A stretch of DNA of 64,000 bases from Labia minor (taxonomy: Eukaryota > Arthropoda > Insecta > Dermaptera > Spongiphoridae), in contig OY720344.1 in NCBI GenBank assembly GCA_963082975.1, positions 13,999,580-14,063,579 on the forward strand, given 5' to 3'. Positions 14,704 to 51,018 of the stretch are shown here, piece by piece (position 1 is the first letter of the stretch; each line of letters starts with the position of its first letter). Made by a program: the position numbers and the translations under genes. Below the pieces are notes generated by a model, which ran no database searches, was not told the origin of the DNA, and saw nothing but the letters and a program-made list of their open reading frames with translations.

Positions 14704-15213
14704 GAATGCGCAAGCTTGCATTGCCAAAACGAACTTAAGTTCGGATTAATTTAAGTTATAAATAAGTCAAGATTAAATATAAATATTATTGAATAAAATT
14801 ATTTATTTTAAATTTGTAGTATAAATTAAATTACAAAAAATGTTTATATTTACAAATGTATTTTATTATTTTAAAAACAAAACATTTTAAAAAACTTTAA
14901 CTTTGGACGCCATTCTGCCTATGTTCCTGAAGTGATATCAAAAAATAAAAAACACTTTACATTAATACTTTTCGATACACTATTCTCGAATCTGAAATCA
15001 GAATTTAAAATTTCGGATTTTTAAATATTAAAAATTTCAACTTTGGACGCCATTTTGACCATGTTCCCGAGGGGGTATCAAAAAATGAAAGGCACTTTAC
15101 ATACTACTTTTCGAAGCTCTTTCCGAATCTGAAGTCAGAATTTCAAAATTTTGAGTTTGATGTCGGACAGAACGACAGACTGAACGATTTTATAAACTCA
15201 CTTAAGTTCGTTG
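14704..15213 (-). mobile_element. HINE-like family Z, single copy with internal duplication
   Basis: Read on the minus strand it opens at about 15213 with AACGAACTTAAGT. The exact reverse complement of this 13-mer is at the far end (14728-14740 as seen on plus). Immediately beyond lies a terminal hairpin AATGC/GCATT (14705-14722). Close to the 5' end is a GTC-rich stretch (GTCTGTCGTTCTGTCC on minus). The interior is a direct duplication of about 140 bp: both units contain CTTTGGACGCCATT, at 14901 and 15041. No coding capacity. Families X and Y share this plan but not this sequence. Confidence 0.6.
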
Positions 15214-15216
15214 AAA

Positions 15217-16180
15217 ATAATCAAAATGTAAATAATCTAATTAGTTTAATAGTGAATTGTAAATATCAAGGTATTCATTCATTAGTTGAAAGAAAATTAA
15301 ATTTTGAGCCTTCTCCTCTTAAAAAAAAAATTATAATCTTTTTTTAACAAAATTTTATTTAATTTTAGAACAATCATCCTCATATACAAACAAACAAGGA
15401 TAATAATTGTCAAAATATCAAAAATAAACTTTTGAAAACTTAAAAAAATAATAAATTCGTCGGTTTATTATTATGATTTATTTTGGTTAATTTGTACTCA
15501 GAAAGTAATTATTTACAAATGAAATATATAAGCGAATAAATTTGAATTTATATTAAATGAAATAACAAATATATTGATTATTTACTTTTTACAATTGAAA
15601 TTGAAACATTCAATCAGTGGAATCGAAAGAATTATTAATAAAATCTTTATTAAACGCTTTTAAATGTTTGAATTTAATATAATTTATATAATAATAATAA
15701 TAATAATAATGATGTTGTATAATTATTATAATACCTATATTATACCAATGATATTTCTTCATGATTTGAATTATTCTCCTCCCATTGACCCTCAGTCGAT
15801 AATTAAATAATTTGCATTAATATATAATTATTTAAAATGAAGGGAAATTATAATTATACCCATTAGAATTTGAAATTAGCATGGATTTCCATTGTTTTTT
15901 TTTCTCTCTCTTAAAACATAACAAAAAAAAAAAAAAAAAATTTGGTTCGATCGATGAATATAAACACTTTATTAAATTTTCTATTCTATTATTAATTTAA
16001 ACTGGCAATAGGAGAAATCCTTATAAAATGTTGTTCGTTCAAAACTCTTAAAAAAAAAACTTCTTTTGTTTTCTTTTTTTTTTATTTTGAATTTAAAAAC
16101 GATAAAATGTGATATATTGAATTAAAGGGGAGGCACTCGAGAAAAAAGAGAGGTATTTAGCCAGCTTCAATAAACAAAAT
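15217..16180. other. A+T-rich intergenic DNA with (AAT)n
   Basis: An (AAT)n tract lies at about 15691-15710, with poly-A/T runs near 15925 and 16070. Nothing else was recognised. Confidence 0.6.
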
Positions 16181-16567
16181 TTAAATAAAAAATAGATTCA
16201 GAACGGAAAGCCGTTCAATCGCGTTGCTTAAGAACATGTCGAGGGTGGGGATGAAAGAGAGAGAGAGATAAAAAAAAATAAACTTCACAAGGAAATACGA
16301 TGGCTTCAATTTACCAAGAGAGAAGAAAAGAAGACAGATTGGAAATGAAAGAGGAAATGTTCTTATGTTCGTCGAACAAGCGCAGTGCCTCCACCGAGAA
16401 TGACATTTCTTCTGGAGATGTGTAGAGGGTGTGTTTGACAACACTCGCCTCCCGGAATGCCCGAAACCAAAAACAAGATAGATAATGGGTGTCAATGATT
16501 GTTTTGCGCCAATCGACAAATAATCCCCATCTTTATGAATTATTTTACATATCATCAAATACATCAA
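16181..16567 (-). other. Balanced island with the window's longest open frame (128 codons), probably non-coding
   Basis: A minus-strand frame of 128 codons covers a balanced block that includes a GA tract at 16256-16268. The translation is rich in F, L, S and I, with no recognisable domain, and its C-terminal half reads through the purine tract as F/Y/L/S. There is no partner frame, splice context or family resemblance that supports a gene. I treat it as a candidate regulatory island (7) in which the long frame is chance. An unknown small protein remains possible. Confidence 0.2.
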
Positions 16568-16667
16568 ACCAATAAATTATGTATATTCTGATAAAGGCAA
16601 AGGGATTTTATTTGACATTTCTTCAAATTCTCTTTTTATTTGATAAAACAGGAAATATGAAATTAAA

Positions 16668-18128
16668 TACAGAAACAATTTCAAATAATTTAAATGTATC
16701 TATTAATGCAATAAAAAACAGATATGGATAGAACAGACATATTTTTAATTTCATTTTATTTATAATATATAAGTAGGAGCTGGGTGTGACGTCATGAAGG
16801 GCTGGGTGAAGTGATATAATTTTAAATTAAGAAAAAACTAATGAAGATGATTTTCCCGAGGATAAAATCAATACCAAGTGCATGATTTGTGGAGATATGT
16901 AAAAATATAAGTTATGTCATCCTAATGACATACGCAGATCGTTCCCACACTGGACTCTCTAGCCATATGAGCATCTGGAAAATAGATTAAACCTTAGCAA
17001 GTTAGTAGAAAGGAGAACGATCCCACAGGGATTATGTTACAACCATTTGACCACCACGCGAAGGATAAACAGACATTCACAGGACCATCCAAGCCATCTG
17101 GACCCTTAGCCCATCATCGCTTGATAAGATAAACAAATTCCCCCAAGCGAGATAACCTAGACATTCCTATGAGGCCATCTGGTCCCTGCGAAGTCGGATA
17201 CTTTCTCACACACTTTCCCACACATGGCTAAACGCATTACTAATACTAATGCTTTAGACCCCTTTAAATATCAACTTCTTGCTCAACTCGAGTCAGTTGA
17301 AGTGTCATCGACGCCGTGTCCACGTCACTTTGATCACGGTTTCATCAACATCAAATTGACCCTCAACTCCGGCTAATTTCCAGTATTTAGTCGTTAAACC
17401 AACAAACGGCTCACTCCCAATCTCATCGGCGCATAATCTCTTCTAACCCTCGTTCGTGTCTGATCCTACTAGTGTCTGGTGGTTCCGAGGTGAAATTCCT
17501 CGTCTAGAGGTGAATAGGTATCGTAATCGCGATACACTGGTAATAGCCGCCTACCAGAGTTCACACTCCTCCTGATAGACCATTGTGGTTAAGTCTATCA
17601 ACCTCCCAAAGCGGGTCGACATGTTAGTGTAGCCAGACATCAAAACGAACAACTCCCCAATCCCCCATTCGTATATTTGCTTCTACAAATACTTTATTGC
17701 AAATAATTATAATACAATTTATATCAATGGTATAATTAATGCAAATAAAGAAAATTATAAATAATAATTTTGTACTGTACTTTTAAACCGTTTCCTGTGT
17801 CCCAACCCTTAGATAAAATAAATTTGATAACAAACATTTAACATCAATACATTCCTCCTTTCAATTCTATCTGAAACTGAGCCATCCAGGTGGAGGATGT
17901 AACTTATATGCACCAAAAATACTGATGCATTAAGTAAATATACCAAATTTCATCAAAATCCGTTGAGCCGTTCAAGCTGTACACATCTATCTATACGGAC
18001 GGACAGACCGACGGACAGAAATTCTTTTTTCTGTTAAGAAAATGCATGATTCGTGTAGATATGTAAAAATCTCCACATGTGAAATTTGGTGTGAAAATAC
18101 CTCCCTTACTATCGTCGGTCGGTAAAAA
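16668..18128 (-). mobile_element. HINE-like family Y, copy 4, split by a 1-kb insertion
   Basis: Family Y sequence runs from 16668 to about 16905 and resumes from about 17909 to 18128, where it ends CGTCGGTCGGTAAAAA (its 5' end, minus orientation). The 3' terminal hairpin is missing, so the 3' end is truncated by roughly 60 bp. About 100 bp of the family are also absent around the insertion point. The insertion at 16906-17908 is therefore younger than this copy. Confidence 0.7.
16906..17908. mobile_element. Unclassified 1,003-bp insertion with 9-bp terminal inverted repeats
   Basis: The ends are TATAAGTTA (16906-16914) and TAACTTATA (17900-17908), followed inward by CATCC on both arms with a 3-bp offset. 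Just inside the left end is a hairpin TATGTCAT/ATGACATA (16913-16932). The interior, except for its A+T-rich last fifth, is much more G+C-rich than the surroundings and has no long open frame. It could be a non-autonomous DNA transposon or, because of its length and composition, a solo LTR. No clean target duplication is visible, so I leave it unclassified. Confidence 0.5.
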
Positions 18129-18432
18129 TATCTCTAAATATATGATGGAATTATTTTAAAGATGAACTGTGTTTTCCATTATCATCAATGAATACTACAT
18201 CTTAGAAAACTTTCCTTCATATAATTTTATCAAAATAATATGTGGGAAATTATTATATGAGCTTTTTAATTTATACAAATTAATATTAAATTAATATTTT
18301 TTATCATTTAAGTAAATTGAAGTGAAGTGACAAATATATGCATATTCTTAGGTATATGGGATGATGATGATAAGCATATTGGTAAAACGTATAGATTGTA
18401 TTTAGTGAAAAATAGCTTTATAATACCAGGAC

Positions 18433-18720
18433 AGGTCAATAAGTCCGTAACTTTTTAATGAAATAAAGGTTTTTGGATAAAAAATTCTTTACAATTCGTC
18501 CAACGTTTCTCCAATTTTTTTATCCCATACAAAAAATAAGATTTGTTGAGGGCATCAAAATAGATATTTCTTTGTGAGATGATTTCATCGTTGAAGTCAA
18601 ATATCTTTTTGTCTAGCCATTTCTTCAGGTTTGGAAACAAGAAATAGTCACTCGGGGCTAAATCCGTAGAATAGTGCGGATGAGGCGCGGAGCAATCCGA
18701 ATCCCAATTCATGGATTTTC
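18433..18720 (-). mobile_element. Mariner transposase C-terminal fragment
   Basis: An 85-codon minus-strand frame (18455-18712) reads YSTDLAPSDYFLFPNLKKWL, the third catalytic aspartate block of a D,D34D mariner transposase. It continues with the usual C-terminus through IKKLEKRWTNC. The TIR-like sequence AGGTCAATAAGTCCGTAAC at 18433-18451 marks the 3' end. Everything upstream of the third aspartate is absent or unrecognisable, although balanced sequence runs on to about 18960. Dead fragment, different from the other mariners here. Confidence 0.8.
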
Positions 18721-18959
18721 ACTTGATTCCATTCTTCTTCAATCCCGAGGTAGTCTGCTATTAATGGATGTCAAACAAAAACCAAAAGTCCCAGCTGGTT
18801 CAAATTTCAACAGGAGTCAGCAAATATTTTCCTGCATGACCAGTGTTGCCATTTCATTTAAGAATTGGGAAATTCAAAAAGTCACTGAATTATTGACCTT
18901 CCCTCGTACATATATTTATTTTTGTTAATGACCATTGGATTGGCTCAGTCTATGTATAA

Positions 18960-19740
18960 ATTTCATAAAAAAAAATCAATTTTATTATTATTATTATTAT
19001 ATTTAACCTTTCAATTTCTATTTCACAACGACTGAGCACACATCTGGTGTATTTATGGCTTAAAAAACTATTAAAATTAAAAACAAAATTTAAATAATGG
19101 AAAATATTTACCAAATTTTATATTATATTATTATATTTCATTATATTATTCCAAAAATGAATATATAAGTTTATTATAAGATATATACAATTATTTTAAA
19201 GAAAAAAAATAAAATTATTATATACAAACTAAATTAATTAAAAAATTAAAACTTTAGATTGAACATTTAGATTTAAGGAAATTTCGATACATATTATTCT
19301 CCAATTATAATAAAAAAGGTATACACATTTATATTAAGACTCTAAATTTAATAATTAATAATTAATTGTTCAATATATGATATAAAATTTAGAGAAAATT
19401 TCATTATTTCATTTGAATTTAATACATTGAACTTGCAGTTGACTTTATAATACAATAGTAGTACTATATACTATATACATATCTATTTAATAAAATATAA
19501 TAAGTGACATATGAGGACCATTTTAAATAATCTGAAATGAAACTGGACTTTTATTTGAATATATATATATATATATATCTGACTAAACAAATGAAATAAA
19601 TAAAAGCCGCTGTTATTTCATTCACTTTCGAGAATCCAAGAAATATAAAACTTGAATTTTCTTCATCATTGAATATTTATTTAACATTCTAATTACAAAG
19701 TTCTCCATCCGTTGTTATACTCTTTGAAAGTTTATTAATT
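18960..19740. other. A+T-rich intergenic DNA
   Basis: A (TTA)n run lies at 18983-19000 and an (AT)n tract at about 19559-19580. Nothing else recognised. Confidence 0.6.
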
Positions 19741-19744
19741 TGAA

Positions 19745-20345
19745 TGAATTAGAGAGAGAAAGTGTCTAAGCTTAAGAGAGAGAGAGAGAGAGAGAGAGTT
19801 TGTACTAGAAGGCTTATTGCGGCTGGGTTATGGCTGAATGCAATAACGAGAGATGCAAATAGCAACGTCCCGCCGCGGCAGCGAATGCAAATCGCTCATT
19901 GTCCTCCCACTCATCCTCTTGTTGAAACAGTGTTCGGGGATGGGACGAGCTCCCCTCCCCCTCCCTTGTCAATACAAGCCGTCGCAATGGGTTAATCCGC
20001 CCTTTGGGCCATTAGTCATAAACTCGATGGTGCATTGTCGTGGGTGAACCGCCCACCAGCCAGCGCCATCCACCGGTCAGGTCTTTTCAAGAACAATGAA
20101 TTAATTACTCCTGGTCAAGATGCATCATTTGCACTAATGAATATCATTCTATACCCAAATGGATTTAGTTAAAACGGTCAAAATCAAAGGCGGATTTAAT
20201 TAGGCCGGATTAGAATCACAATACAATTTGGCTGACAAGGTCAAAATGCGTTTCCTTCTAATGACACTAATTCGTTAGGGAAGCTAATTTGGGCATCAAA
20301 AGATCTCTTATCATTGTTACAAGAATTAATTCAACTTAATTATCT
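19745..20345. promoter_or_regulatory. Best candidate enhancer: 600-bp island with clustered developmental factor sites
   Basis: A (GA)n tract at 19779-19798 leads into the most balanced 500 bp of the window. Consensus sites seen are POU octamers ATGCAAAT at 19853-19860 and 19885-19892, a SOX core CATTGT at 19897-19902, a TCF-type ATCAAAGG at 20183-20190, an Otx-type GGATTA at 20207-20212, a GATA site CTTATC at 20307-20312 overlapping a second SOX core CATTGTT, and several TAATTA or CTAATTT homeodomain cores. A Gli/Ci-like CCGCCCACC lies near 20050. Overlapping open frames at 19762-20047 have no family resemblance and translate low-complexity G+C-rich sequence. Site calls are by eye; function is inferred. 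Confidence 0.4.
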
Positions 20346-20475
20346 ACAAAATCCCTAAATTTTAAGTAACCATCTTGAAAACCAAGATATTTTAGCAATT
20401 CATCAATTAATTATCTATATAAAAGACATAATCATTCATTCAATTCGTAATTCCGTAACCATTCGTTGCTATGGA

Positions 20476-20513
<38 letters not shown>

Positions 20514-20763
20514 AAATTGGAGGTGGAGTGTTCAGGATCAGCCATGATTAGTATGGTGTATATGGGTGTGTGTGGATGGATATTAGGTCGTAATTAATTA
20601 ATCAACTAGGTAGGAAATAGAAGAGAGTATTTAATTCCCTTTCTATTAATTATACAAGTGAAATAAGAAATGTTATAAGAAGGTGGATATGAATTCGTAG
20701 AAGAATAAGCCGTTCGGGGAGTCATACAGAAATAACATTGGAAAGCCCCAATTAAAAATAAGC
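20346..20763. repeat. (AT)n tract and mixed intergenic DNA
   Basis: (AT)n lies at 20479-20511. The following 20520-20760 is moderately balanced (GGTGTGTGTGGATGG, TCGTAATTAATTAATC, GCCGTTCGGGGAGTC) without a frame. It may be the edge of the preceding island. Confidence 0.6.
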
Positions 20764-21409
20764 TGGAGTGTCTCCACTCGACTATCTCGCAATTTGAATT
20801 GGATTAAATAACATAATATATTATATTTAAATTAAATTTAATTAATTATAAATTATAAATAATAAATATTAAACCAGCGCATGTTTGGCTTTTTATTGAT
20901 GGCACTATCACACGTGTTGGCGCGTGAGATTTGCAGTGTTAAAAAATTAATTCTGGTACTTTCAGCGATTCAATCAAGCTGAAATTCTATATATAGCAGT
21001 TTTATACAATGTTTAATCATGTGAAAAATTATCAAACATATATCTTTATTTTTACGGTCACTTTAGAGGAAAAAAAACCAAAACGTTGTGGTAATGACCC
21101 TCTTCCGGATGAGCTACATTTCTCAAAAGTTGATAGAAAACTATGAATTTTGAATAATGTCCATGTACCAAATTTCATCATTCTAGCTCAAACCGTTTTT
21201 GCGTAATCTTGGTTACATACATACACACACACACACACATACACACACACACACACACATACACACACACACACACATACACACACACAGACATTTTTCT
21301 CAACCTTAGTGAAAATGATTCAGGAACCTTCAAAACGTATAAAAACATCAAAATCTCAACATCGAAAATTTTCGTGATCGCAATACTATCTCTTACGAGA
21401 TAGTAAAAA
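20764..21409 (-). mobile_element. HINE-like family X, copy 1 (full length, 646 bp)
   Basis: Read on the minus strand it starts at 21409 with TTTTTACTATCTCGTAA, whose CTATCTC pairs with the following GAGATAG. A GTRT microsatellite (plus-strand CA repeats, 21215-21290) follows, then the core GATGAAATTTGGTACATGGA. At the far end is the inverted 5' motif (ACTATCTCG at 20783-20791 on plus), directly next to a terminal hairpin GAGTG/CACTC (20768-20781). The open frames over the CA repeat are translated microsatellite. Copies: 29491, 39418 and 55891. Confidence 0.75.
21215..21290. repeat. (CA)n microsatellite with TACA interruptions
   Basis: CA/TACA repeat internal to family X. The same position is repeat-bearing in the copies at 29491 and 55891, so it is part of the element and not an independent microsatellite. 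Confidence 0.95.
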
Positions 21410-21534
21410 GATGCTTGATTAGAGGAAAAAACTTGCATTTAAACACCCACAAAATGGATATTCATAAAAATAAGCCAAAAATGTATGTCATGGATACCAC
21501 ACGAGCATCAGCCGATATATTAGTTAGTGAAAGT

Positions 21535-21715
21535 AAAATATGTCAATCTTAAACATAAACTTATCGACAATCAATAAGTGATCATTGGTATATGAAAAAT
21601 ATTGTTTTCAAAGAACTAGTCAATTAATTGCTGCACTCCACGATAAAATCATTTTAAACTGAAAATGCAAACACCGTTTGCAACGCGTTCAACTAGTTAA
21701 TTAATAATTTCTCTA
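21535..21715 (+). repeat. Dispersed repeat W, copy 1
   Basis: It contains AACTTATCGACAA, GAAAAATATTGTT, AATTAATTGCTG, CCACGATAAA and GCAAACACCGTTTGCAA. These occur in the same order at 54740-55003. The hairpin-like GCAAACACCGTTTGC is its most conserved part. Type of element unknown. Confidence 0.6.
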
Positions 21716-22454
21716 TCTTATGTGACATTTTTTTCATCATGTCGTGATTATATAATATCAATAAAATTCCTTAAGCTCTCGTTTCAATGTGAGTCATTTG
21801 AACCGATCTGATTCCAGATGTAAATCATTCAATTAAATCTAATCTTTCCAAAATTCCATTATTCTATTATTATGTCTGATAATCTCTTAATTTATTTTCT
21901 ATTCTATTCAAATACATATTAGTACTATAATTAAAATGAATTCTTACTTATGAATTTAATTTTAACATTGCATACAATCGATTTAGTAAGGATATTAAGA
22001 GGAACTGAATAACAAGAGAAAGAAAATTCTATTACTAGAATAATTCAAAATCAGATACTTACATATTATAGAATAATATTAAACTTCTTAGTATTTAGAT
22101 TAAATTTATTATCTATCTTATTATAAATAGAAAATGTCAAGAATTATATATTGGAATATGTTTTGACAGAACAATAGGGTCTGTTCATATATAGGAGCCA
22201 GTAAGTTAATACTCGTATATTGAATTTTTTTTCAACATTAAATCATTAAACTTTCGTATACTAATTAATCATAATTTTTTGATGACAACAAAAAAATAAA
22301 TTCATTAATAAATTAAAATATAATAGAAAATATTACTCCTTTTATTTGTGATCAATAAAACAAATTAAATTTCAATCTCTACTATCAAATCTGGGCAGAT
22401 ATTAAATTGATATTGATTTTAAACAATAATATTTTTTTTTTATTTCAATTTTTG
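21716..22454. other. A+T-rich intergenic DNA, nothing recognised
   Basis: No frame or repeat recognised. Confidence 0.6.
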
Positions 22455-22469
22455 AAATTAGTAATTATT

Positions 22470-22865
22470 ATTATTATTATTTGCGTCTGGACCATCTAGG
22501 ATCACGCAAAGCTCCCATATACAAGGGTAATGATGTCAAGTGTAGCCATATATGAATGTTCTTTAGGTGTTAACTTTTATTCTTCTTTTTGAGTGCTCGT
22601 AAAGATCCGGATCCTCCAGGTGACGGGTGGATTGGGTACCAACTGGAGTTATTCTCATCACGATCCATTGTTGCTTATGGTTGCTTGTTTTTGAGGTAGT
22701 CCTGTTGGTGCAAGGTTCTATAGAACCAGGGCTTGTCAGTTCCTGGAGCCAGAGGCAGCTGATGTTAAATTGAATTTATTAGAAAAATCCATTCTTGGTG
22801 AGAATCGAACGCCGACTTCTTGTGTAGAAGGTTGCCACGTTACACTCTCGGTCAAGCCACCTCCC
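22470..22865 (-). mobile_element. tRNA-derived SINE, complete, with exact 15-bp target duplication
   Basis: Identical flanks AAATTAGTAATTATT at 22455-22469 and 22866-22880. Read on minus from 22865, the head is tRNA-like: an A-box region TGGCTTGACCGAGAG close to the start and a B-box GTTCGATTC about 50 bases on. A tRNA-unrelated body follows. The 3' tail is (AAT)n, seen on plus as TTATTATTATTATT at 22467-22480. The exact duplication argues for a fairly recent insertion. The 65-codon plus-strand frame starting at 22770 is the antisense of the tRNA-like head and is not a gene. Confidence 0.85.
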
Positions 22866-22880
22866 AAATTAGTAATTATT

Positions 22881-24185
22881 TATTATATTGATCATTTAAA
22901 TCTCTATTTTATATATCTCTTAAGTTCTTTTAGTAATTTTTTTTTAAATATGTCATTTGTTGTATGAATTTATGGATTGAGAAGTGAACATAAAAAAGAA
23001 AGCTCAACTACTACATACATATATTACAAAAGAGTTTAGTGGAAAGTTCATGAACTTAGTAGAGTTTATTAGCGCTATAAAACGAGTTTATTAATTGAAC
23101 AATGAAATTTATACTTTGTAATATATAAAAATTGTAGACAAATTTAAGAGATAAAAAAATATTTTTTAATTGAATTCCCTCGATTAATAATTAATTAATA
23201 TAACATAATACATTAATATAGAACATTACTTACCTATCTCTTCAAGAATGGAATAATTTTTATTTCTAAATAAGTTATTTTAATTGGTTTACTTTTATTA
23301 TTATTATTATATTCTTATTTTTAAATTAATTATATCCATTTCTAGTATTTCAATTTGAAACAGAATATATAAATTATTTTAAAAATTTATAAAGCATGAA
23401 AATCTCTGTCTCTCGCCTTGCTAGATAAAATTAGTAAAGATCCTTTTTTCAAATGTCTAAATCTAGAAATCTTTAAGTTAATTCGTAGCCTTTTTCTTTT
23501 TATTATCTCGATCACTTTTTGTTGAGTATCTTCGTTTTGCAAATGTAAAAAAAGATAAATTTTGTTTTTATTGAACTCGTTATCAGTGAAAGAAGACATT
23601 AGAAAATTTCAATTTTGTATTACACTCACAATTAGTGTTATGAATCAACCAAAATTCAGACAAGTTTGAATGTTTGTTTTTTTTTTTTTTTGTCATTTTT
23701 ACTTTAAACTATTTAACGTAATTAACGTGAATAAATGTTTTTTTTTCATATATTAAATATATAAAGGTATTATATTATTGTATATTATTTTTCTGAAATC
23801 TTAATTGTTAATAATATTTAAAATGTATAGAAATATTCATAGATATGTAATTAAGGGAAATTCAAATTAGAAGACTGTTGAGTTATTTACCCTAACTAAT
23901 ATTATAATAGAAAGATTCCTGTAAAAATACAAGAAATGAAATATAAAATTATAACCTACACAGTTTACTTCACACAAATATTTTTATATAAATTGATTTT
24001 AACAAAAATTTTTAATAATAGTTAAAAAAAAATATAGAAAGATGTTATATATATTTATTATCTTATGCACAGTTATTGTCTTTTGAATTATCATTATTTA
24101 CACTTTAAGAATATAATTGAATAAATCGATGGGAGAGTGTTTTAAATAGTTCTTTGTTTTATTTCTGTGTAATAGTTTTTATTTA
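22881..24185. other. A+T-rich intergenic DNA
   Basis: The minus-strand 70-codon frame at 23387-23599 is K/R/L-rich and matches nothing I know. Poly-T at 23679-23691. No repeat recognised. Confidence 0.5.
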
Positions 24186-24189
24186 TTAC

Positions 24190-24725
24190 CCTTCTCTCTT
24201 TAAATTCAACGGCCGTGAAGAAAGGAAATTGCAAATCTGATTTTTCCAATTTACATGCTGGGTTAGTACATCTCAAATCAAGGTATAAATCACACCTCTC
24301 TAAACATTTTCTCTATTGATTTTTCATTAATTTATTAAAACTTATTTTCTTTTAAAGTATTAAAAAAAATTGTTAATCAAGATCATATTGGGTATGTATA
24401 TATCTATCTATCTATATATATGTACAATAAATAAACTATTTAACTAGTATAATAAAATTTAATAATTAATAATGATATTCCATTCAATTTATTTATTTAT
24501 TTCATAACAGATTATTTTCTAAAATTTAGAAATTTATACAGAGAGTGACTATAAATGTATTTCTTTCAAGATAAAAAATTTTTAAATAAAAAAAAATCCC
24601 GGTTGCATAAACATCAGGGTCTTATTCAAATCTGAGAAAAGGCCTTTCGTTCTTGGAAGCAAATTTTAAACAGTCCTGCAGAGGTTAAAGGTTTTAACCC
24701 TCACCCTGCTTTCTATTTGTACTTA
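24190..24725. promoter_or_regulatory. Two small candidate regulatory islands
   Basis: Balanced patches at 24190-24310 (CAACGGCCGTGAAG, GGAAATTGCAAATC, CATGCTGGGTTAG) and 24595-24725 (TCCCGGTTGCATAAAC, AAAAGGCCTTTCGTTC, CCTGCAGAGGTTAAAGG) are separated by 280 bp of A+T-rich DNA. No frame, no repeat similarity. Weak evidence. Confidence 0.18.
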
Positions 24726-25039
24726 CAAACTTATACAAATATATTGAATAAATTGAAAAAATATACCTTTTTCTTTGTAATATCATATTCTAAAATTAAA
24801 TTTATATATGTATAAAATATTTATTTTTAATCAGGAGAGTTTTTTTTTAATTTGATATATTATTAAGGTCTCCCTCCATCAGATTAAATATTATTTTATT
24901 TCATTAAAAAAAATTTAATTCTTAATTTTAAACTTCACCATTTTTTTAATATACATTAATTATTTTTTTATTTTTAATATTAAGTTCAATTTTGGTTTTT
25001 CTAAATATTATTTATCAATTAATATAAAACGTATGTAGA

Positions 25040-27216: not shown

Positions 27217-27475
27217 GTTTTTACCGACCGACGATAGGAAGAGAAGGTATTGTTTTCACTCCAAATTTCACATATCTCCACGAATCATGCTATTTGTTAA
27301 CAGAAAAAAGTATTTTTAACATGATGTCTGTCCGTCTGTCCATTGTGTGTCCATATAGACGAGTATAACTTGAACGACTTAACGAATTTTGATAAAATTT
27401 GGTATATTTACTTAATTCATCAGTAGCATTCACTTTGGTGTATATGTCGAAAGCGGAAGTGGTAGTTTACAAAGT
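27217..27475 (+). mobile_element. HINE-like family Y, copy 5 (5' part only)
   Basis: It starts TTTTTACCGACCGACGATAG and keeps the GTCTGTCCGTCTGTCC tract, the core (GATAAAATTTGGTATATTTA) and the AAAGCGGAAGTGGTAG stretch. It stops before the 3' inverted motif and hairpin. About 27 bp are missing after CAAATTTCAC near 27270. Confidence 0.65.
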
Positions 27476-27774
27476 ATTAATTTTATATTCATTGTAGGAA
27501 AACTTTAAATATAGTAGTAATTAATAATTGAGTGATTGCACTAAAAATTATTTTATTGTCATTATTAACAATTAAGTAGTACTTGTAGTTTTTACTTTGA
27601 AAAATAAATGATTCTTATTTTTGGATAAAAAATAACAAATGATACAAATTCTATTCTAGAATGAAGAAAGAGGCGAAAGTAGATTAATTAAAAAAAAAAA
27701 ATTTTATTTTATTTATATTTAAAAAAGGAAGCGCTGTCTGATGTAGTTGCTATTATTTTAAATTCAGAAAAAAA

Positions 27775-27955
27775 TAATAAAGATGATTTTCCCGAGACTG
27801 AAACCAATAGAGATCAATCTTTCTTTATAAAAATTATCAATGGTGGGAATTTCAAAAAAAATCCTTCGAGCTGTTTAATATTTCACAAATTTAAATATAT
27901 ATACATATATCTATATACAATTTTTGCTAGTATAATAAGATAAGATACATATACT
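27775..27955 (+). repeat. Dispersed repeat V, copy 1
   Basis: AAGATGATTTTCCCGAGACT, GATCAATCTTTCTTTATAAA, AATTTCAAAAAAAATCCTTC, CTATATACAATTTTTGCTAG and AATAAGATAAGATA recur in the same order in reverse orientation at 52535-52765. Its first 20-odd bases are also found inside family Y, so V and Y share a module. Type unknown. Confidence 0.55.
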
Positions 27956-29335: not shown

Positions 29336-29490
29336 TATTGTTTTTATAGAAACTATAATTAATTTTTAAAACATGTCAAACAATCACTATCACCTCCTCT
29401 ACTCTAACATAAACATCATTGTAAAAATATCAAAAATGAATTTCTGAAACTTTTGAATATAATCATAAACATGTAAATAAAATAAAATTA

Positions 29491-30093
29491 GCTGGAGTGT
29501 CTCCACTCGACTATCTCGCAATTTGAATTAAATAACATAATATATTATATTTAAATTAAATTTAATTAATTATAAATTATAAATAATAAATATTAAACCA
29601 GCGCATGTTTGACTTTTTATTGATGGCACCATGGCACGTGTTGGCGCGTGACATTTGCAGTGTTAAAAAATTAATTCTGTTAATTTCAGCGAATCAATCA
29701 AGCTGAAATTCTATATATAGCAGTTTTATACAATTATTAATCATGTGAAAAATTATCAAACATATATCTTTATTTTTACAGTCACTTTAGAGGAAAAAAA
29801 TCAAAACGTTGTAAGTAATGACCCTCTTCCGGTTGAGCTACATTTCTCAAAAGTTGATAGAAAACTACGAATTTTGAATAATGTTCATGTACCAAATTTC
29901 ATCATTCTAACTCAAACCGTTTTTGTGTAATCTTGGTTACATACATACACACACACACATACACACATACACACACAGACATTTTTCTCAACCTTAGTGA
30001 AAATCAGGAACCTTCAAAACATATAAAAACATCAAAATCTCAACATCGAAAATTTTCGTGATCGCAATACTATCTCTTACGAGATAGTAAAAA
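29491..30093 (-). mobile_element. HINE-like family X, copy 2 (full length)
   Basis: Starts on minus at 30093 with TTTTTACTATCTCGTAA and ends at 29491 after the GAGTG/CACTC hairpin (29495-29508). The CA tract (29946-29978) is shorter than in copy 1. Apart from that and the A+T-rich middle it is close to copy 1, which suggests fairly recent spread. The 61-codon frame at 29745-29930 has a shadow in copy 1 and is not a gene. Confidence 0.75.
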
Positions 30094-32177: not shown

Positions 32178-32566
32178 GACGAGAGTAGATTTAGAGTATT
32201 TGGGAATAGGATTCTTCGAAGCATTTTTCGGCCAAAAACAGATGAGATCATCGGGGAATGGCAGAGACTGCATAACGAGAAATTGCATGAACTCTATGCA
32301 TCTCCAGACATAGTTATGGTTATAATATCGATAAAGTTGCGATGGGCAGGGTATGTGACTAGAATAGGTGAGGAAAGAATGACGAAAAATATATCGGTGG
32401 GGAGACCGAGTGGGAAACGTCCGTTCAGAAGACCAAGGACGCGGTGAGTGGCAATATTAGGAAGGAACGTGAGAGAGATAGGAGAGGGTAGGGGTTGGAT
32501 GGTTGTGGTTCAGAATAGGGACACTTGGAGAAAGTTGGTCGCAGTGGCCAAGAACAGAGATAGAAT
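32178..32566 (+). mobile_element. LINE 3' fragment (copy b)
   Basis: Homologous to the end of copy a: AGTATTTGGGAATAGGATTC, GAATGGCAGAGACTGCATAA, ATGCATCTCCAGACATAG, GCGATGGGCAGGG and CAAGGACGCGGTGAGTGG. It encodes the LRWAGxxxRxGEERM region, broken by stops. Dead 5'-truncated copy. Confidence 0.8.
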
Positions 32567-35414: not shown

Positions 35415-35795
35415 CTAGTCTATCTATCTCTGTGGCTCTAGGTAACTCGAAAGTTCTTGGCCGCAACAACCACACTTCTTCAAATGTTCCTATTCTGAGC
35501 CACAATCCTCCAATCCCTATTCTCTCCCAGCTCTCTCACGTCCCTTTCTACATTATCCACCCACCGCGTTCTTGGTCTTCCCAGCGAGCGTTTCCCACTG
35601 GAACTCCCCCCCCCCCCCAATATATTTTTCGCCATTCTTTCCTCCCCCATTCTAGCCACGTGTCCTGTCCACCGCAGCCTTCTCGATTTTATAATTATAA
35701 CTATATCTGGAGATGTATTGAGGTCAGTCATGCAATTCCTCGTTATGCAATCTCCGCCACTCCCCGGTGAGCTCATCTTTCTTCGCAGAATCTAG
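35415..35795 (-). mobile_element. LINE 3' fragment (copy c)
   Basis: The minus-strand frame at 35480-35776 keeps 98 codons, including RRLRWTGHVARMGEERMAKN and GRPRTRWVDNVERDVRELGE. This is the most intact C-terminus of this family in the window. The 3' end shows (TATC)n at 35418-35430 on plus, i.e. a GATA tail. A run of C at 35609-35618 (poly-G on minus) corresponds to a glycine stretch. Truncated at the 5' end. Confidence 0.85.
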
Positions 35796-39417: not shown

Positions 39418-39898
39418 TTACCTACCACGTTTTCATATTTTTTTTTTCTAAACTGACCGTAAAAATAAAGATATAAGTTTGATAGTTTTTCACATGATTA
39501 AAAATTGAATAAAACTGCTAAAGATATAATTTCAGCTTGATCGAATCGCTGAAAGTACCGGAATTAATTTTATAAATATTTTAACATATTGACTGCCAAT
39601 CACCCCCCAGCACGTGGCGTGGTGTCATCTACAAAGTATTAATTTTTTAAATTTTTAAATTTTGACTTAAAAATGAAGGTAAAGGTTTTAAATATCAATT
39701 TAATATATGTTAATTAATTAATTTAATTCAATAACAATACTATACTATAAATTTAAATTTTTTAAATTAATTAATTAATTAAAATTCACAAACAAATATA
39801 CTTAATTTATAATCTAATTGATTAAATTTAATTTAAATATTTTATATGTTAATTAATCCAATTCAAATTTGCGAGATAGTCGAGTGGAGACAATCCAG
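39418..39898 (+). mobile_element. HINE-like family X, copy 4 (5' truncated, diverged)
   Basis: It retains CGTAAAAATAAAGATATAAG, ATTTCAGCTTGATCGAATCG, GCACGTGGCGTGGTG and the 3' inverted motif GCGAGATAGTCGAGTGGAGA. In the terminal hairpin the second arm has changed, with CAATCC for CACTCC. The microsatellite and core are missing. The A+T-rich middle is expanded by about 100 bp. Older than copies 1-3. Confidence 0.65.
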
Positions 39899-40079
39899 AT
39901 TTTTTTAATTTAGAAATATTTTCAATAAATTCCATTAAACCACGAATAGAAAATAATAAATTAAATATAGAATTAGTAACTTATATATATTTTTTAGTGC
40001 TTTTTCATCTTCATTTTCTTTTATTACTATTATTATACCATTTAATAAAGCAAATGTTTTTCCTTTAATGAAACACTAA
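39899..40079. other. A+T-rich intergenic DNA
   Basis: Nothing recognised. Confidence 0.5.
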
Positions 40080-41945: not shown

Positions 41946-41949
41946 TTTG

Positions 41950-42080
41950 CAGATTTCTCTATTTGGGTTTGGGACGCAATTTCTTTAATTGAAGGCAAGG
42001 AAAAGTCGTGACTTGCGTGAACAGGGTTGCTTCCCTGATGTGGGCCTATCTCTTTGGGATCATTCAGAGTAACCACCCGC
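41950..42080. promoter_or_regulatory. Small balanced patch
   Basis: GACGCAATTTCTTTAATTG, GTCGTGACTTGCGTGAACAG, CTATCTCTTTGGGATCATTC and CCACCCGCCACTCATAAAAT lie just outside the mariner. Could be regulatory. 42081-42819 is A+T-rich with CT-rich patches near 42535-42590. Confidence 0.2.
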
Positions 42081-42819
42081 CACTCATAAAATTTATTTTG
42101 AAGTTAAAAAGTTAAAACAAAATACATAAATGAATTTTAGGATATAATGTACAAAATAATATTATTTAAACCATATTTATCAGGATTATTTAATAAGACT
42201 GATTCGAATAATGAAATTCTAAGAAATTCTCAAATATGTACCAGAACAAAGAAACTTTTAACAAAATTTAAACTGTGTATTTGAATTGGAAGAATAAATG
42301 TTATAAACTCAAATCGTATAATTCTTCAGTATAGAAAAATGAAAAAAAAATAATAACCATCGACATAAGTGGACACACACAACTGTCCTTAATAAAAACA
42401 GAATCAAAATAACACGATCTTTTAAATAAAAGACAATATTTTCCCTATTCAGAGAGCTTCACATTTTCATGTGCTTTCTTTTAATCAACTCATGAAATGA
42501 AGAGGGTATTATTCTTTAATTGAACTTTGTTTGTTTCTTTTCCGTTTCCTTCTCTTTACTTTTCCTTCCCTTACTTTGTTCCACTCATTTTTATAGGACA
42601 CAAATATTTGCTGATGTCAAAGAAAAAAAGAATTGTTTTTGTGATGGTGTGGAGTTTAATCAATAATTAGAAGTTCACGAGGCGACCAAATAACCACAAA
42701 ATTACAAGTCGATAAATTGATAGTCCGACCCAATTATTAGACTAAATACCGTTAACTAGTTAAAACATCTAACTTTACCATTTTATTAAATATTCTACAC
42801 CTTTAATGTAAATATTTGT

Positions 42820-43350
42820 TAAATCGACTGTTACGATGTCAACAGAAATCAACTATGATGACATTGACATTAGAATACGATCAAACAATTCAGCTTATTT
42901 GCATAATTGTTTTATTTTCTCACTCAACTTGAATTCCATTCATCATTTATAAGACAAAGTTCCACCAGATAATCATTCCCACATATTTACACAAATCAAT
43001 ATAATAAATAATTATAATTTTTTCTTTACTCTTTTATTAGAATGAATAATATTATATATTATATTTATGGATAAAACAAACAATATTATTAAAAATGATG
43101 AAACGTTATTTTTTTTTTTATCTTTTTTATTTGATTTTAGAAATTTATAGTAACAAGTTTCTCATGTCACCGCATTAAATTTTAATGAAATACTTTCCTC
43201 CATTTACTTGATTTTATAGCGTCATCTATTTCCAATTACATTTACTTGAGATAATTAATCGTGAGAAGTAAAGGGATTTAATTCCATTTGCCAAAGTAAA
43301 ATTAAATTTGTCCATTAATAAAATATGAATTCGATTTTAAATGCATTATT
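42820..43350. promoter_or_regulatory. Candidate enhancer with an adjacent POU/SOX pair
   Basis: ATTTGCATAATTGTTTT at 42897-42913 joins a POU octamer to a SOX core with one base between. Further cores are AACAATTCAG (42884), CCACCAGATAATC, TACTTGAGATAATTAATCG and TTCCATTTGCC in the second half. Composition is mixed rather than G+C-rich. No frame and no repeat. Function inferred from motifs only. Confidence 0.28.
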
Positions 43351-44110
43351 ACTTACTTGTCAAATACTTATATCTCTACTAAGGGAATAAAAGACAAAAT
43401 ATAAGCACCGAGCAAATATTGAATCAGGAAACGAAGGAGAAAGAATGAAAAACATGTATAAAAATAGAATATGAAGAGAAGAATAAAATTCAGGGTGACT
43501 GGTGAAAATGAATATTGTCTTTATACAATAGAGTTATATTTAATAAATTGTAAAAAAAAAAAATATCAACCAATAACAATTTATTCAATAGCACTTTATA
43601 GAGACATTAAAATTTAAAATGATTTAATAATCAATTTATCATTAGAATTAATAATTGGAGTCATATCGTAAAAATTATATAAAATTGTTTCACTACATAA
43701 ATAGAAATTCATTTCTATTGATTTAGAGGAATTATTTAAAATAATTGTTACGGGAAAATGGAGACCTTTAATGTTTATTTTATTCTACCTAAATTAATAT
43801 TATCATCTATCTTTTATATAATTTGCTTATCTATTTATAATGTTATAAATTATCAAGCACCCACTCACTATACTAATACAATATAGTAGATATTTAATTT
43901 TTTTTTACCTATATTTGTTCTTTCAATGAATTTGTGAACAGTATATGTACATGACGTTATATAGTTATAATTAAATATACAACCACATATATATACCAGA
44001 AGAACCCTGCCAACGGTGTTTGCAATTTAAGTTTAAACTGAATTTTTAACTAATTTTCATAATGTTACAGACATCACATACATACATACGACGGAAATTA
44101 TGTAGTTTGA
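43351..44110. other. A+T-rich intergenic DNA; repeat W scrap at the end
   Basis: GCCAACGGTGTTTGCAATTT at 44008-44027 is, inverted, related to the conserved part of repeat W. The rest is A+T-rich. Confidence 0.45.
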
Positions 44111-45425
44111 TATGTGGTGTGTTCAAAAAGTATCACGAATTATGTATTTCTTAAATAAATTTAAGTAAAAAGAAATCTTTTTAATAAACACACTTTACTT
44201 AAAATTGCACTAAAAAGTAAAAAATAAAATCACTGTAAAGTGTGTGTACCCAATAGTGGAAGCAAATGTTTTACGGTGTTATTATAATTTGAGCGCACAC
44301 ACTTTACAGTGATTTTATTTTTTACTTTTTAGTGCAATTTTAAGTAAAGTGTGTTTTTTAAAAAGATTTCTTTTTACTTAAATTTATTTTATACTTTTTA
44401 GTAGAACTGCTATCGCCATCTATGATTGAAATAGTGAACTATTCCATATTCCGCATATGAAAGTTTAGTTAATTAATTACCAGTAATAGATAAATAATTC
44501 AGTAGATTTTTCAATTGATTCGTGTATTATTAGCAGGAGCAAGCGCGTATTCAAAATTTCAAGTTGATTGAATGACGGGAAGTTGTTGAAATATCGATTA
44601 TAAAATGCCGCGGACAAACAAACGGACATCCGGACAGTGTGAGTTAAGTAAAGTGTATTAAAAAAGTAGTCACCGCCAGATATAATGCACTGTCAGCGTT
44701 TTTCCCAATTTTTAAATCACTTAAAAAATAATTTTTTTGTGATCTCCTTCAATGTATTTTTTATCTCCTTTCATGGGCCTCTTCAGTTTTGGAAACAAAA
44801 AAATTCAAAGGGCCAGGCCTAGGAAATACGGTGCCTACAGCACCATTACTGTTGTTTTTGAATAAATATTCGCGCACAAGCAACGAAGCTAGGGTGTTAT
44901 CATATTGCAAAAGCCAATTTTAGTTCCGGGCGTTTCTGATGTGTTTCTTTGTGCAAATTGTGCATAACTTGCAGGTAATATTCTTTATTGACCGTGCGAC
45001 CCTTTGATAATGACTCATGATCCACGGCGTTTTCTTCGAGGTGAGCAAAACCTTCCGGCTCACTCTTCGTCGTCCACATCTTCTCGCCCCTCTGAGAACA
45101 TTTTGTACCATCAATAAACGTTGCTTTTGCCCAAGGTAGCTTCACCACATGCCACAGTGAACATTCGGAATGCGTTCGCTTACTTAATTTTGTTTTTCAC
45201 ACAAAATTTGATACAAATTCTTTGGTCCATTTTTTGGAATAAGCAAAAATCAAAGACCAACCAAAACATGTCCAAGCAAAAGGTGTCAAAAATTAACTAA
45301 ACATTCAAAATGGCCAGTCAGTATGGGGGATATGAGTACCGACATAATGCAACAAAACAATCGAAAATCAAATTCACGTAGCCCGCCAAAATTCAAAATT
45401 CGCGTACTTTTTGAACCCACCACGT
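44111..45425 (-). mobile_element. Mariner transposon remnant, mosaic, with nested hairpin element
   Basis: The ends pair as GTGGTGTGTTCAAAAAGTA (44114) and, inverted, TACTTTTTGAACCCACCACG (45406-45425). On minus, an 82-codon frame (44900-45148) reads HESLSKGRTVNKEYYLQVMH, the segment after the first catalytic aspartate of a mariner transposase. Other frames continue with LVREYLFKNNS and, near the end, EKRxQCIISGGDYF. The block around the third aspartate is damaged (PRPGPLNFFV). Several frame changes are needed to follow it. The 44400-44640 part does not look like mariner (GACAAACAAACGGACATCC) and may be a further insertion. A long hairpin element sits at 44153-44390. Confidence 0.75.
44153..44390. 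mobile_element. Long near-perfect hairpin (MITE-like), about 95-bp arms
   Basis: The left arm 44153-44246 and right arm 44296-44390 are almost perfect reverse complements, with only a few differences. They enclose a 49-bp loop (GTGGAAGCAAATG...). The arms contain AAGTAAAGTGTGT and CACTGTAAAGTGTGTG repeats. It lies inside the mariner remnant and is therefore younger. A transcript would fold into a long double-stranded stem. Confidence 0.85.
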
Positions 45426-46974
45426 ATATGATCGTTTAGAAAGTTTTAATTATTATTGAAAATTATTTGCGGTTTATTTTTACATTTAATTGTGAGATTT
45501 AAGTCTCGACGTTTCGGCGTCAATTTTAGCAAACTTAATTCTAGTATACTATATACAAAATATTGATTAAATAAATTCCGTTTTCTTTTCCTGAGTTTTT
45601 TTTTTTCTGTTTTAATAAAATCTACCTAAAGTTTTTTTCCAAAATGTTTGTATCTAATTTTGTTCATACTTCGATGATTCCAAAAGTACTAAACAAATTT
45701 TATTTATAAATTTATCAATTTAAACTCTCATTATAACTTACATTGGTGTGTGAAAACAATTCTTTCCATTCAGGGAAAACCTCTACCCATAAATATGGTA
45801 TGCTCCAGGTGTTTGTACATACGTATAAATGCGTTGAAGTCTCCACCCAAATTTAAGCTGTCATTAGCACTCATGAAATTATCTCTTATATACTCTCATT
45901 ATATACTGTGTCTATGTTTTTGCCAAATTGGTCATTTGAAAGTAAATAGAAGACTCTAAGTATAAATATGAATTTTCTTATTTTAATTCAATTTAATAAA
46001 TCAATTTAATCTAATTATGTAGATCAATGTTGCAGAAATTATAAAATTTGTTATAAGTTGTTTTTTCATGATTCCAGAAAAATACCTATCAATACCATTA
46101 ATAATAATGAGTGATAATTTTTGGTAGTATGGTTTCATAAAAGCAGATCAAGTAATGCGCTTGAAACAACTCAGAAGTCTTGATATCATTTTAAGTAATT
46201 TCTTTAAATTCTACATCCATATCTGTGATTCAATTTTTTTCACCTTCAATTCGATAAAGTAAATGAAATCATTGCAGTAGCACTTATATCTTTTCAGCTT
46301 TAAAATTTATCTCTGAAACCTTATTGGAGAACTATACATTTAATATTATTCTTTCTCCATTCATCTTGTATTCCATCACTAAAATCAACTTGCTCTAAAA
46401 AGAGTGCCTCATTGTCTGTATAAAATTTTTAACCATATCAATAACTAATTATAAGCTGAGGTAAGTTGTTATTTGAATATGAAATTCATCTCAGAAATAT
46501 CATTCTTTCTCTAAGCTCCTTTGAAGTATTCTGACAGTTAAGTAAAAACAAATTAGAAATCCTTTCAGACAATAAGTCGACTTTTCTCAAGAAAAGCGTT
46601 GGAATGTCAGGAGCGAGCAATTCATTCCCCTCAATAGATAGAGACAGAACACAGAAATATAATTACTTATTTACGAAGTTGAAAATATCTTATATTACTT
46701 TATTATTCTTCAAAATATTCCATTTTCCCTTCATCAGCCAATGTTACTTGGTACATTTAAAGATATAAAATATTTACTCGTATTTTAATTAAATTATAGA
46801 TATCTTTGAATTTAATCCTTTTTTTTAATTACAGTATATTTAAAAATTATATTATTTTTTTTTATATTTAGAAATATTTGAATAAAAAAATGGTTTGATT
46901 TTATTTTATTGAAAAGATTTAATTTTGGATGTTATAATGAATGAATGAATGAATGAATAAGAATCTCTACTTTA
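45426..46974. repeat. A+T-rich intergenic DNA with (GAAT)n
   Basis: (GAAT)n lies at about 46937-46958. TCTCGACGTTTCGGCGTCAA near 45504-45523 is a small balanced patch. The 69-codon frame at 45750-45959 has no family resemblance. A patch at 46560-46640 (GACTTTTCTCAAGAAAAGCG) contains the short inverted repeat CTTTTCTCAAGAAAAG. Confidence 0.5.
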
Positions 46975-47410
46975 ATATGTTCATTGGATGAAAGTGAGGT
47001 GGAAATTGAATATTATTTATTTGAAGCTGAAAGCATTTTATTTTTCATTGCATTTGTACTGCTGCCTGTGAAGTCTATTTATTTGAGTGAATTGGGGGAG
47101 GCAAGGGTGAATAACGAAAGCGTAGCTGCCTGGGGCAATTCTAACTCCACCAGTCGATATTTTGTGATATTTCGTATGGATATTTCCGGGGTGGGAGATT
47201 TGCAGGTCAGCTGGCAGCCCATTGTGGACGTAGCGACTAATTGACATTCCAGTCTCGTACAGTTGCCTGCCATGTAGATGTAACAGTCAGGCGATGGCTA
47301 TCAGTCAAGCCTGCGGCAAGTCGAGGACCTCTGATGGATATCCTAACACCATCGTGAAATATATTGAAGCCGATGAAACGGATTGCATCCAACCCTTATA
47401 GACCCTAATA
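46975..47410 (+). other. Balanced island with several short open frames; possible orphan exon
   Basis: About 430 bp of nearly even composition. Frame one, 46984-47244, gives 86 codons without a recognisable family. Frame two is open from 47234 to a stop at 47399-47401 and, from an ATG at 47294, reads KSRTSDGYPNTIVKYIEADE near its end, which has a more protein-like composition than most chance frames. AG dinucleotides that could be splice acceptors precede it (TTTGCAG near 47205). No homology can be claimed. It may equally be a regulatory island. Confidence 0.22.
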
Positions 47411-49359
47411 CGTGCTTTCTCTGCAAATAATATTAAATGCTTCTGGAATTTTTTTTTTTTTTTTTACTATTTTCTTTGATTTTGATTCAAAAAGTAATAC
47501 TAGAGAGGAAGAGTATATGAATTATTAAGTAAATCATATTATACGTTTTATAAAAAAAAATTCAGATAAAACAAAATGCTTTTATAAATATTAAGCTAAG
47601 ATAAACTTACCTTGTGAATTACATAACTAAAAAGAATGATTAAAGTTGAATGAATCTAAATATTTTTTTTTTATTATTATTATTATAAAATATTCAGGTC
47701 GTTGAAAGATTTTTTAATTAATTATTTGCAATTTCATTTAAAATTATAAAGATTTATTCGTTTGTATTTTTAACATAAAAAGCACTCAAGTTTATGTATC
47801 TTTCAATGCTTAGCTAATATTTATTCAGTTGGATAAGTTTCAGAAGTCTACAGAAAATTTCATTTGCCTCTTATAAATATCGAGTTTAAAATTAATTAGT
47901 TTAAATTAACCAAAAATAAAATAAAATTTCAAAGTGAAAATAAAATATACTTGAAGTAGATACTACCAAAAATCAAATCAATTAAAAATTATTTAAATTA
48001 TATGAAATACAATACCTACAATTAGATATTTTATCTCAATGATAAATTTAAATTCAAAATATTTTATAATTGTTAGTTTATAATGTTTTTATCAACTTCA
48101 CTTCATGACTGTCTGTCTGTTTGTTTGATCTTACGACAAATTGAAATCGATTTTACATCAACTTTAAATTGAGATAGACTTTTGAAAATTTTTACTGATA
48201 TTTCAATGGATCCCTAGAAGGTATGAAAGAAATATAATTGAATTATAATTAATTAATTGTAATGCAATTAGTGATTAATTGCCTTTAGTATTTGAATTTT
48301 TATTCATGCCATCTGATGGATAAATATTGAGTTGGTTTTCATTTGAAAATAATTCAAAATAATTTACAATATTATTAGAGGAATTTTTAATTAATATGAT
48401 AATTATAATAAATATATTTTAAAAATATTACTTCAATAATAACATTTATTTAATATTTATAATTATTATTAATATTTATTCATTGATAATAAATGCGCCC
48501 AATGTTTTTCGTTTTATATGAAGCAATTTATCCATAAACTTTGTCAGGCTTATAGAAAAATTATTTTATTCTTTTTAGTCCATGATAAAACGTTAATTTT
48601 TATAAAAAAATTTTTTTATATTTATATTATTATAAATTGTAATAGTTTGAGTTTATTATTTATAACTTGACAAATTTTTAATTAATTTTATTCGAAATTT
48701 ATAATATATGAAAAGTTATAATAATTGTCTGAAATATACATGATACATGATAAAATTGTGAAGACTAAATAGAAAGAAGGTTTTTGAAAAATAAATATTT
48801 GAGTAGATACATACATTATTATATTACTATATATATATTAAATTACGAGTCTATTTATAAATAAAGAGAAGTTTTGTATTACTTTATATACTTACTTAAT
48901 TGTTATTTTTTCAAATTATATTTACTTTTTGTTGAACAAATAATAAAAAAAAAAATATTCGAATATAAACCAAGATATTTTAATATTTAAAGAAAATATT
49001 TTATATAAACAAAAGAAAAGATTACAATTGAGAAATTTTATATTATTAAATAATATTTTGATAGTATCTGTAAAAAAATTAATTACTAATATACACATCA
49101 TTATGAAAATTCAAAATGATAGAGATGAATGAATATTTAAATATTTAAAATTCCATAAATATTCATTTGTTAATACATATACAGTAAATACTTTCATAAC
49201 AAAGAAAGCACGTAGAATAAAATTGCCACTTTCAAATGTTTCTATAGAATAGATATATATATTTTTTTTTAAGAATCGATTTCTCTATAAAAAAGCGAAT
49301 AAAAAAAACAACAAAATCTCCCTTAAAACGAGACAAAATGTTTTTATTGAATATGAAAG
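47411..49359. other. A+T-rich intergenic DNA, possible decayed repeat
   Basis: GACTGTCTGTCTGTTTGTTT at 48107-48126, followed by GATCTTACGACAAATTGAAA, resembles the GTC-rich tract and neighbourhood of the HINE-like families, but no terminal motif was found. Otherwise nothing recognised. Confidence 0.4.
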
Positions 49360-49570
49360 TTGATATTCTGCCTGATTCCATCGCTTGCTTGCTTGCCTGT
49401 CTCTCTCTCTCTCTCTCTCCATCCCATTTAATATCCTCGACCTGCTTTCTGGCCCATTGTTTTCGATGGGCGTAGGGTGGTGGGTGTGGATTGCCCATAA
49501 AAAACAATCCCTGAACTCATGTTCAATTCAAACTGACCGACAATCATGACAACAACTTTATAAAACATTA
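49360..49570. promoter_or_regulatory. Candidate non-coding regulatory island with (CT)n
   Basis: GCTTGCTTGCTTGCC, (CT)n at 49401-49418, GGCCCATTGTTTTCGATGGG (SOX core CATTGTTT) and GGTGGTGGGTGTGG. The 91-codon minus frame reads the CT repeat as an R/E run and is not a gene. Confidence 0.25.
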
Positions 49571-50389
49571 CCACTCATAATGATTAGGGTTATTTTATTT
49601 TATGCCTGGGAAGTTATCTCAACAAAAAAAAAACATCTGCACAATAATCATATATTAATGGCTTTGAAATTATAAATTAAAAAAGCAATCCAGCTTCAAA
49701 TATTTCAAAATATTTATTAAATTTGCTTGAATTATATTTTGTAATAACAACACAAGTTTACCTAATTTACTCTTTAATTTACTCTACCTAACATAATAAA
49801 GTGAAAAAAAAAATTATTCTAATTATATCATAAAATTAGTATATATGTACATAGTATATCTCGCTGTGATAAATGTTTAAATTAAAATTTGTATTTTCTA
49901 ATATAAAATAATAAAATAAATAAATAAATATTAAAGATTTAAGTTATATATGTAATGTTCAATGGTACATTTTAGTAGCTAATTATCATCTTGAAAAGTA
50001 AATAAATAAAATCCAAATAATAAATTTATAAAGATATATATTAATCAAAATAAGCAAGGGATGTTTTAAATCGAATTTAGATATCAATGACTAACAATAA
50101 ATAAATAAATAAAATAATTATATAATTCTATGGAAGTCTAAAGCTCTTAAATGCAGCAATTATATTATATATTATATATTAATTATATATTACAATTATA
50201 AATATTATCCTCCAACGATCCCTATCTTGGACTACCTCCATCCAACTTCTCTTCTCTCCCATCTCTTTTATGCTTCTGTTAATAATAATATTAATTAATA
50301 ATAATGGATAATAAGTAAAGTAATGTTAAAATAGTAGATGAAAAAAAATTCTGATGAAATAAAATAAAAACTAAATTTTAAATTGTTCC
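49571..50389. other. A+T-rich intergenic DNA, nothing recognised
   Basis: A CT-rich patch at 50210-50280 (CCAACGATCCCTATCTTGG, CTTCTCTTCTCTCCC) may be the decayed end of a LINE fragment of the family at 8505 (antisense), but it is too short to be sure. Confidence 0.4.
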
Positions 50390-51018
50390 TTTTTACCGAC
50401 CGACGATAGTAAGGGAGATATTGTTTTCACACCAAATTTCACATGTGGAGATTTTTACATATCTCCACGAACCATGCATTTTCTGAACAGAAAAAAGTAT
50501 TTTTAGCATGATGTCTGTCCGTCCGTCCGTCCGTATAGATGTGTACAGCCTGAACGGCTCAACCGATTTTGATGAAATTTGGTATATTTACTTAATGCAT
50601 CAGTGGCATGAATTGATCAACTTTTGGTGCAAATCCGGAAACCGGAAGTGGTAGTATTAGCGATCGACTATAGGAAGGGAAGGGTTATTTTCGCACCAAA
50701 TTTCACATAAGGAGATTTTTTACATATCATCACGAACCATTCACTTTGCATTGGTTTTATACTCGAGAAAAATCATCTTTATTAGTTTTTTCTTAATTAA
50801 AATTATATGACCTCATCCAGCTATTCATGACGTCACAGTTTGGTCTTCCATATATATTATAAATAAATTAAAATTAAAAATATTTATGTTATATCCATAT
50901 CTGTTTTTTATTACATTAATAGATATATTAAAATTATTTGAAATTGTTTCTGTAGCTGGAAATTAATTTATTTCAAACTGTCGGTCGGTTCAGACCTGGC
51001 CACAGGTCAACTTATTTT
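50390..51018 (+). mobile_element. HINE-like family Y, copy 3 (full length, best preserved)
   Basis: Starts TTTTTACCGACCGACGATAG. The tract GTCTGTCCGTCCGTCCGTCC (50513-50532) precedes the core GATTTTGATGAAATTTGGTA, then CATTCACTTTGCATTGG and a CRE-like TGACGTCA (50828-50835). The inverted motif CTGTCGGTCGGTTC and hairpin ACCTG/CAGGT (50995-51008) close it. It is a good type copy for the family. Confidence 0.75.

Follow-up and report, generated by a model that had tools for sequence, protein, structure and literature searches.

Three short repeat families of Labia minor that are very probably non-autonomous Helentrons

What kind of mobile element lies behind several repeat families that follow one plan at their ends? 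The question is raised by a stretch of Labia minor DNA of 64,000 nucleotides (C1:13999580-14063579, hereafter the window; G+C 26%) from a 604-Mb assembly of 71 contigs, in which an earlier note had described three families, X, Y and Z, of helentron-like layout. In the passages of Thomas, Vadnagara and Pritham (2014; PMC4067079) that treat them, HINEs are defined by a subterminal inverted motif, a 3' palindrome, strings of T at the borders and an unaltered target site. We consider it very probable that X, Y and Z are three non-autonomous Helentron (HINE) families, because of their end structure, their T-run borders without duplication, their nested insertions into oligo-T and the Helentron-type Reps in the same genome.

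End structure and copies of the three families

In all three families (Table 1), the motif at the 5' end recurs inverted near the 3' end, as the earlier note had described, over 9 bp in X, 10 bp in Y and 13 bp in Z, lengths attained in 16, 4 and 0 of 1000 shuffles, respectively. A hairpin with a stem of 5-6 bp follows the inverted copy in each family, its stability exceeding that of shuffles in Y only, and the GT- or GTC-type tract that had been claimed is found as a CA/GT microsatellite in X and a GTCC tract in Y. Additionally, X alone has a short inverted repeat of the DINE-1 type with its 5' side inside the 5' motif, and none of 200 shuffled versions of that end gave an equal or better fold. 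Such nesting is described for DINE-1, and a palindromic motif, as in Z, for mite families (PMC4067079); neither feature was found in Y.

Table 1. Features of families X, Y and Z in the window (window coordinates)
Feature	Position	Strand	Remark
X full copy	20755-21409	-	CA/GT microsatellite at 21215-21293
X 5' subterminal motif ACTATCTCG	21396-21404	-	
X inverted repeat GAGATAGT	21385-21392	-	nested with 5' motif (DINE-1-type)
X motif, inverted 3' copy	20781-20789	-	
X 3' hairpin GAGTGGAGACACTC	20766-20779	-	
X copy of X/Y common core	21166-21197	-	
X full copy	29484-30093	-	
X 5' part of copy	55891-56440	+	interrupted by another repeat
X 3' part of same copy	58488-58590	+	
X partial copy	39418-39899	+	matches X from about base 316
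Y full copy	1016-1636	-	
Y full copy	12708-13301	+	internal deletion
Y full copy	50390-51018	+	GTCC tract near 50513-50533
Y 5' motif	50395-50404	+	
Y motif, inverted 3' copy	50980-50989	+	
Y 3' hairpin	50993-51008	+	
Y core AACGGCTCAACCGATTTTGATGAAATTTGGTA	50553-50584	+	
Y, two partial matches	16668-18128	-	17921-18128 and 16668-16905, about 1 kb of other sequence between
Y partial	27218-27828		5' part 27218-27466 (+); weaker reverse match 27602-27828
Y partial copy, 5' part	62107-62380	-	
Z full copy	14697-15213	-	
Z 5' motif	15200-15212	-	
Z motif, inverted 3' copy	14728-14740	-	
Z terminal hairpin AATGC..GCATT	14705-14722	-	
Z internal tandem pair	14890-15158	-	138 bp step

Genome-wide, the exact 3' end occurs 15,900 times for X, 16,423 times for Y and 193 times for Z, with no occurrence in controls. 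The proposal that the families are active side by side fits X well, seven copies of which are 98.9-100% identical; the best Y copies share 95-97% identity with the window copy, and Z has fewer copies than X and Y, most of them older. By description, not sequence, Y also recalls insect elements that reportedly carry hitch-hiking (GTCY)n tracts, and Bombyx and Rhodnius elements said to have formerly been named MITEs: the point in common is a GTC-type tract within a short element.

Several further repeats accompany these families. A diverged X-like subfamily is clustered at C6:7.6-16.4 Mb, at several places 14-33 kb apart (one copy read, L098), in what looks like a duplicated region. The insert splitting the third X copy (56438-58487) starts with CTAGCTGCTC, contains GGGGGCTCCGCCCCC and ends with TATATATAG; by eye, ATTATTTA flanks both of its edges, a possible 8-bp duplication, and its first part matches L019 and L110. 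Fragments of related repeats are scattered at 8594-9769, 32204-32542, 35432-35791, 56640-57077 and 59560-60042, and the reading frame at 35480-35791 (-), which has no Pfam match, resembles by eye the end of a non-LTR retrotransposon. A Pfam scan of six reading frames in the window gave one match, a mariner-like DDE fragment under the curated cut-off.

T-run borders and insertion sites

Flanks were compared for copies with a full-length match and an exact anchor at both ends, a rule that dropped 1 of 12 distinct X copies, 1 of 4 Y copies and 3 of 24 distinct Z copies; ten further Y copies, fetched for their ends, joined the set, which thus held 11 X, 13 Y and 21 Z copies. With the 5' T-run removed, flank repeats of at least 4 bp were present in 0/11 X, 1/13 Y and 5/21 Z copies, against means of 0.45, 0.67 and 4.67 with shuffled partners. 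The check for target duplication and T insertion that had been proposed therefore found T-run borders and no consistent duplication, although frequent chance matches leave the test little power for Z. X and Y begin TTTTTAC, and at least five T form the 5' border in 11/11 X and 12/13 Y copies, the exception being a Y copy in L004 that directly abuts an X copy at the latter's 3' end; Z has four T in 16/21 copies and two in 5/21, and in DNA as AT-rich as this a T-run border arises by chance more easily than in balanced DNA.

Nested copies supply the empty sites, in four cases only. Two X copies (in L003 and L006) lie within poly-T belonging to other X copies, a Y copy at C2:77995772 lies in the corresponding poly-T of an X copy, and a Y copy at C1:63725550 lies within a six-T run of an outer Y; in all four, the outer sequence continues past the T-run and only T is duplicated. 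Moreover, match coordinates suggest two additional cases of Y within Y, at the same position in Y (C10:65509973 and C1:39894220). The elements run from T-run to T-run, unlike canonical Helitrons (5' TC, 3' CTRR, A/T insertion), and the combination of TIRs and a fixed-length target-site duplication that marks DDE MITEs was found in none of the three families.

These observations bear on two other modes of copying. Mobilisation as MITEs by a cut-and-paste DDE transposase would suit elements that are short, non-coding, numerous and bear an inverted motif near both ends, and similar elements were long named MITEs (PMC4067079). However, the inverted motif is asymmetric, its 5' copy being terminal and its 3' copy having a hairpin after it, target-site duplication is no more frequent than chance, and the nested insertions duplicate nothing but T, which together make this reading highly improbable. 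If instead a LINE reverse transcriptase copied X, Y and Z in the manner of SINEs, the T-runs being tails, the T-run borders and the very high copy number would be accounted for, yet we find this scarcely credible: T-runs stand at both ends, the 5' ends are fixed among the compared copies, variable target-site duplications are absent, and the Rfam scan of the window returned no family at threshold.

Under the HINE reading, analogy with the class suggests how X, Y and Z would be copied. A Helentron Rep would nick at a T-run, single-strand copying would start at the 5' motif and stop once it reached the inverted motif and hairpin towards the 3' end, and the strand would enter between T residues, HINEs retaining the ends and being copied in trans. 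We propose that such entry between T residues explains the lack of duplication, and that insertion into the T-runs of other copies accounts both for copies nested in one another and for the X-Y pair lying head to tail in L004.

A core common to X and Y

The families had been described as unrelated, which does not hold for X and Y. Their central alignment scores 37.5, and 300 shuffles average 18.4 (sd 2.9) with a maximum of 29.5, whereas the X-Z (22.0 vs 22.1 shuffled) and Y-Z (21.0 vs 18.5) scores are shuffle-like; judged by sequence, X and Y are thus related through a common core. The strongest common part spans about 140 bp: the microsatellite comes first, AACGGYT..GATGAAATTTGGTA next and ATCAACTTTTG..CCGGAA last. 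Sought in a loose form, the core has 8 occurrences in the window and none in ten Markov sequences, and a 27-base pattern for its Y version and kindred forms is met at 10,690 places genome-wide (none in the control). Some of the first 100 places hold arrays of the Y core, with steps of 126-146 or 270-283 bp.

That families differing in their ends should share this core is the least expected aspect of the finding. The core recurs with 6 mismatches in 32 bases in the L110 repeat, which lies beside the Helentron-type Rep gene of lineage D and has different ends. One idea, which we regard as unlikely, is that the core moves as a module from one rolling-circle family to another and is selectively kept, for example as a cis signal in transcription or synthesis of the second strand, with new termini taking the place of the old. 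Similar cores are present in repeats of many arthropods. Searches outside the genome with the X and Y 3' ends (viral contigs), X (GTDB contigs), the core (viral contigs) and Y with the core (phage records) gave no useful match; 82 phage records matching Y or the core did so over 30 bases at E 0.1, which looks like chance, and of four strings from the core and a related repeat, one stands in two papers, the occurrence among the matches listed being unrelated.

Rep genes, candidate sources and known parallels

A Helitron_like_N search of the genome gave 104 matches, with two kinds of Rep where the motif is readable: RGLPHxH (Helitron type) and RGSPHxH, a Helentron-type Rep by the signature given in PMC4067079. 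A tree of 19 distinct rows (from 28 passing the length filter, 41 loci offered) splits 11 vs 8 with support of 100/99, under a program warning on long branches, and the Helentron-type rows fall into groups C/D, E/F and G. Three separate open stretches, in different frames, make up lineage G (C2:16282032), with an RGSPHxH Rep, a PIF1 helicase (E 6.3e-30) and an Exo_endo_phos match that exceeds the cut-off (E 1.2e-6); as predicted from these domains, it has the Rep, PIF1-type helicase and C-terminal endonuclease of a Helentron. Lineage E (C1:47868109; C1:47862700-47868800; L071, L114, L100) has an open frame of 2181 aa with Rep and PIF1 in the parts read and a region alignable to the endonuclease portion of lineage G, the best stretch including helicase, while Pfam gave no endonuclease match there at E 0.01. 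Its tail, after the endonuclease-like region, has a sub-cut-off match to an Ulp1-type protease (E 0.0013, 19.1 vs 20.7 bits).

The search for an autonomous Rep/helicase element with X, Y or Z termini, which the earlier note had called for, found none among the Rep loci examined, with patterns that would miss a partner sharing at least the first 34-35 bases with its HINE. None of the X or Y 5' ends that continue differently is closer than 31 kb to any of the 104 Rep matches, and no DDE or reverse transcriptase partner with these ends was met in a partial test. Lineage C (L064-L067) suggests a variant in which the rolling-circle mode is the same and the source is a Helentron-clade element lacking an endonuclease, not a classical Helentron. 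Its 1785-aa frame holds Rep and PIF1, its last 382 aa have no endonuclease match, and it begins, as X and Y do, at a T-run (TTTTTAGTTATACG); yet this delimited 5' end differs from X, Y and Z past the T-run, and its 23 bases occur exactly only 7 times in the genome, so that we hold such a source to be very unlikely. Elsewhere, an inverted repeat in the window (44153-44389; 101-bp arms, 96% complementary, 35-base gap) has a match in the region downstream of the Rep gene of lineage C. Loci L045-L053 carry RGLPHxH Reps of nearly equal score; seven of the nine open frames are about 1650 aa long and the other two 1176 and 1537 aa, which points to a young canonical Helitron family in this genome as well.

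Among known systems, the HINEs of Metaseiulus occidentalis and Drosophila DINE-1/INE-1 resemble X, Y and Z, by layout and not sequence, in their ends, T borders, microsatellite or central repeats and copy numbers above those of Helentrons, but are tied to autonomous Helentrons, in a scheme where the link is an identical motif of at least 11 bp (PMC4067079). The Pacific oyster, compared by description, has several divergent HINE families alongside unlinked Helentron-type Reps, and none of its ten Helentron-type elements is relatable to its HINE families in the passages that describe them (PMC7492417). The central tandem repeats of Cg_HINE are mostly 140-180 bp, near the 138 bp of Z and the 126-146 bp steps of the Y core, but form the main body of the element, whereas most compared X and Y copies have one core unit (PMC7492417). 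The layout, the coexistence of families and the missing link to a Helentron thus all have precedents.

To these, Labia minor very probably adds three HINE families that offer clean borders and empty sites, two of them very abundant and the third smaller. With HINEs and long open frames of Helentron type in one genome, which Helentron copies which HINE becomes a testable question.
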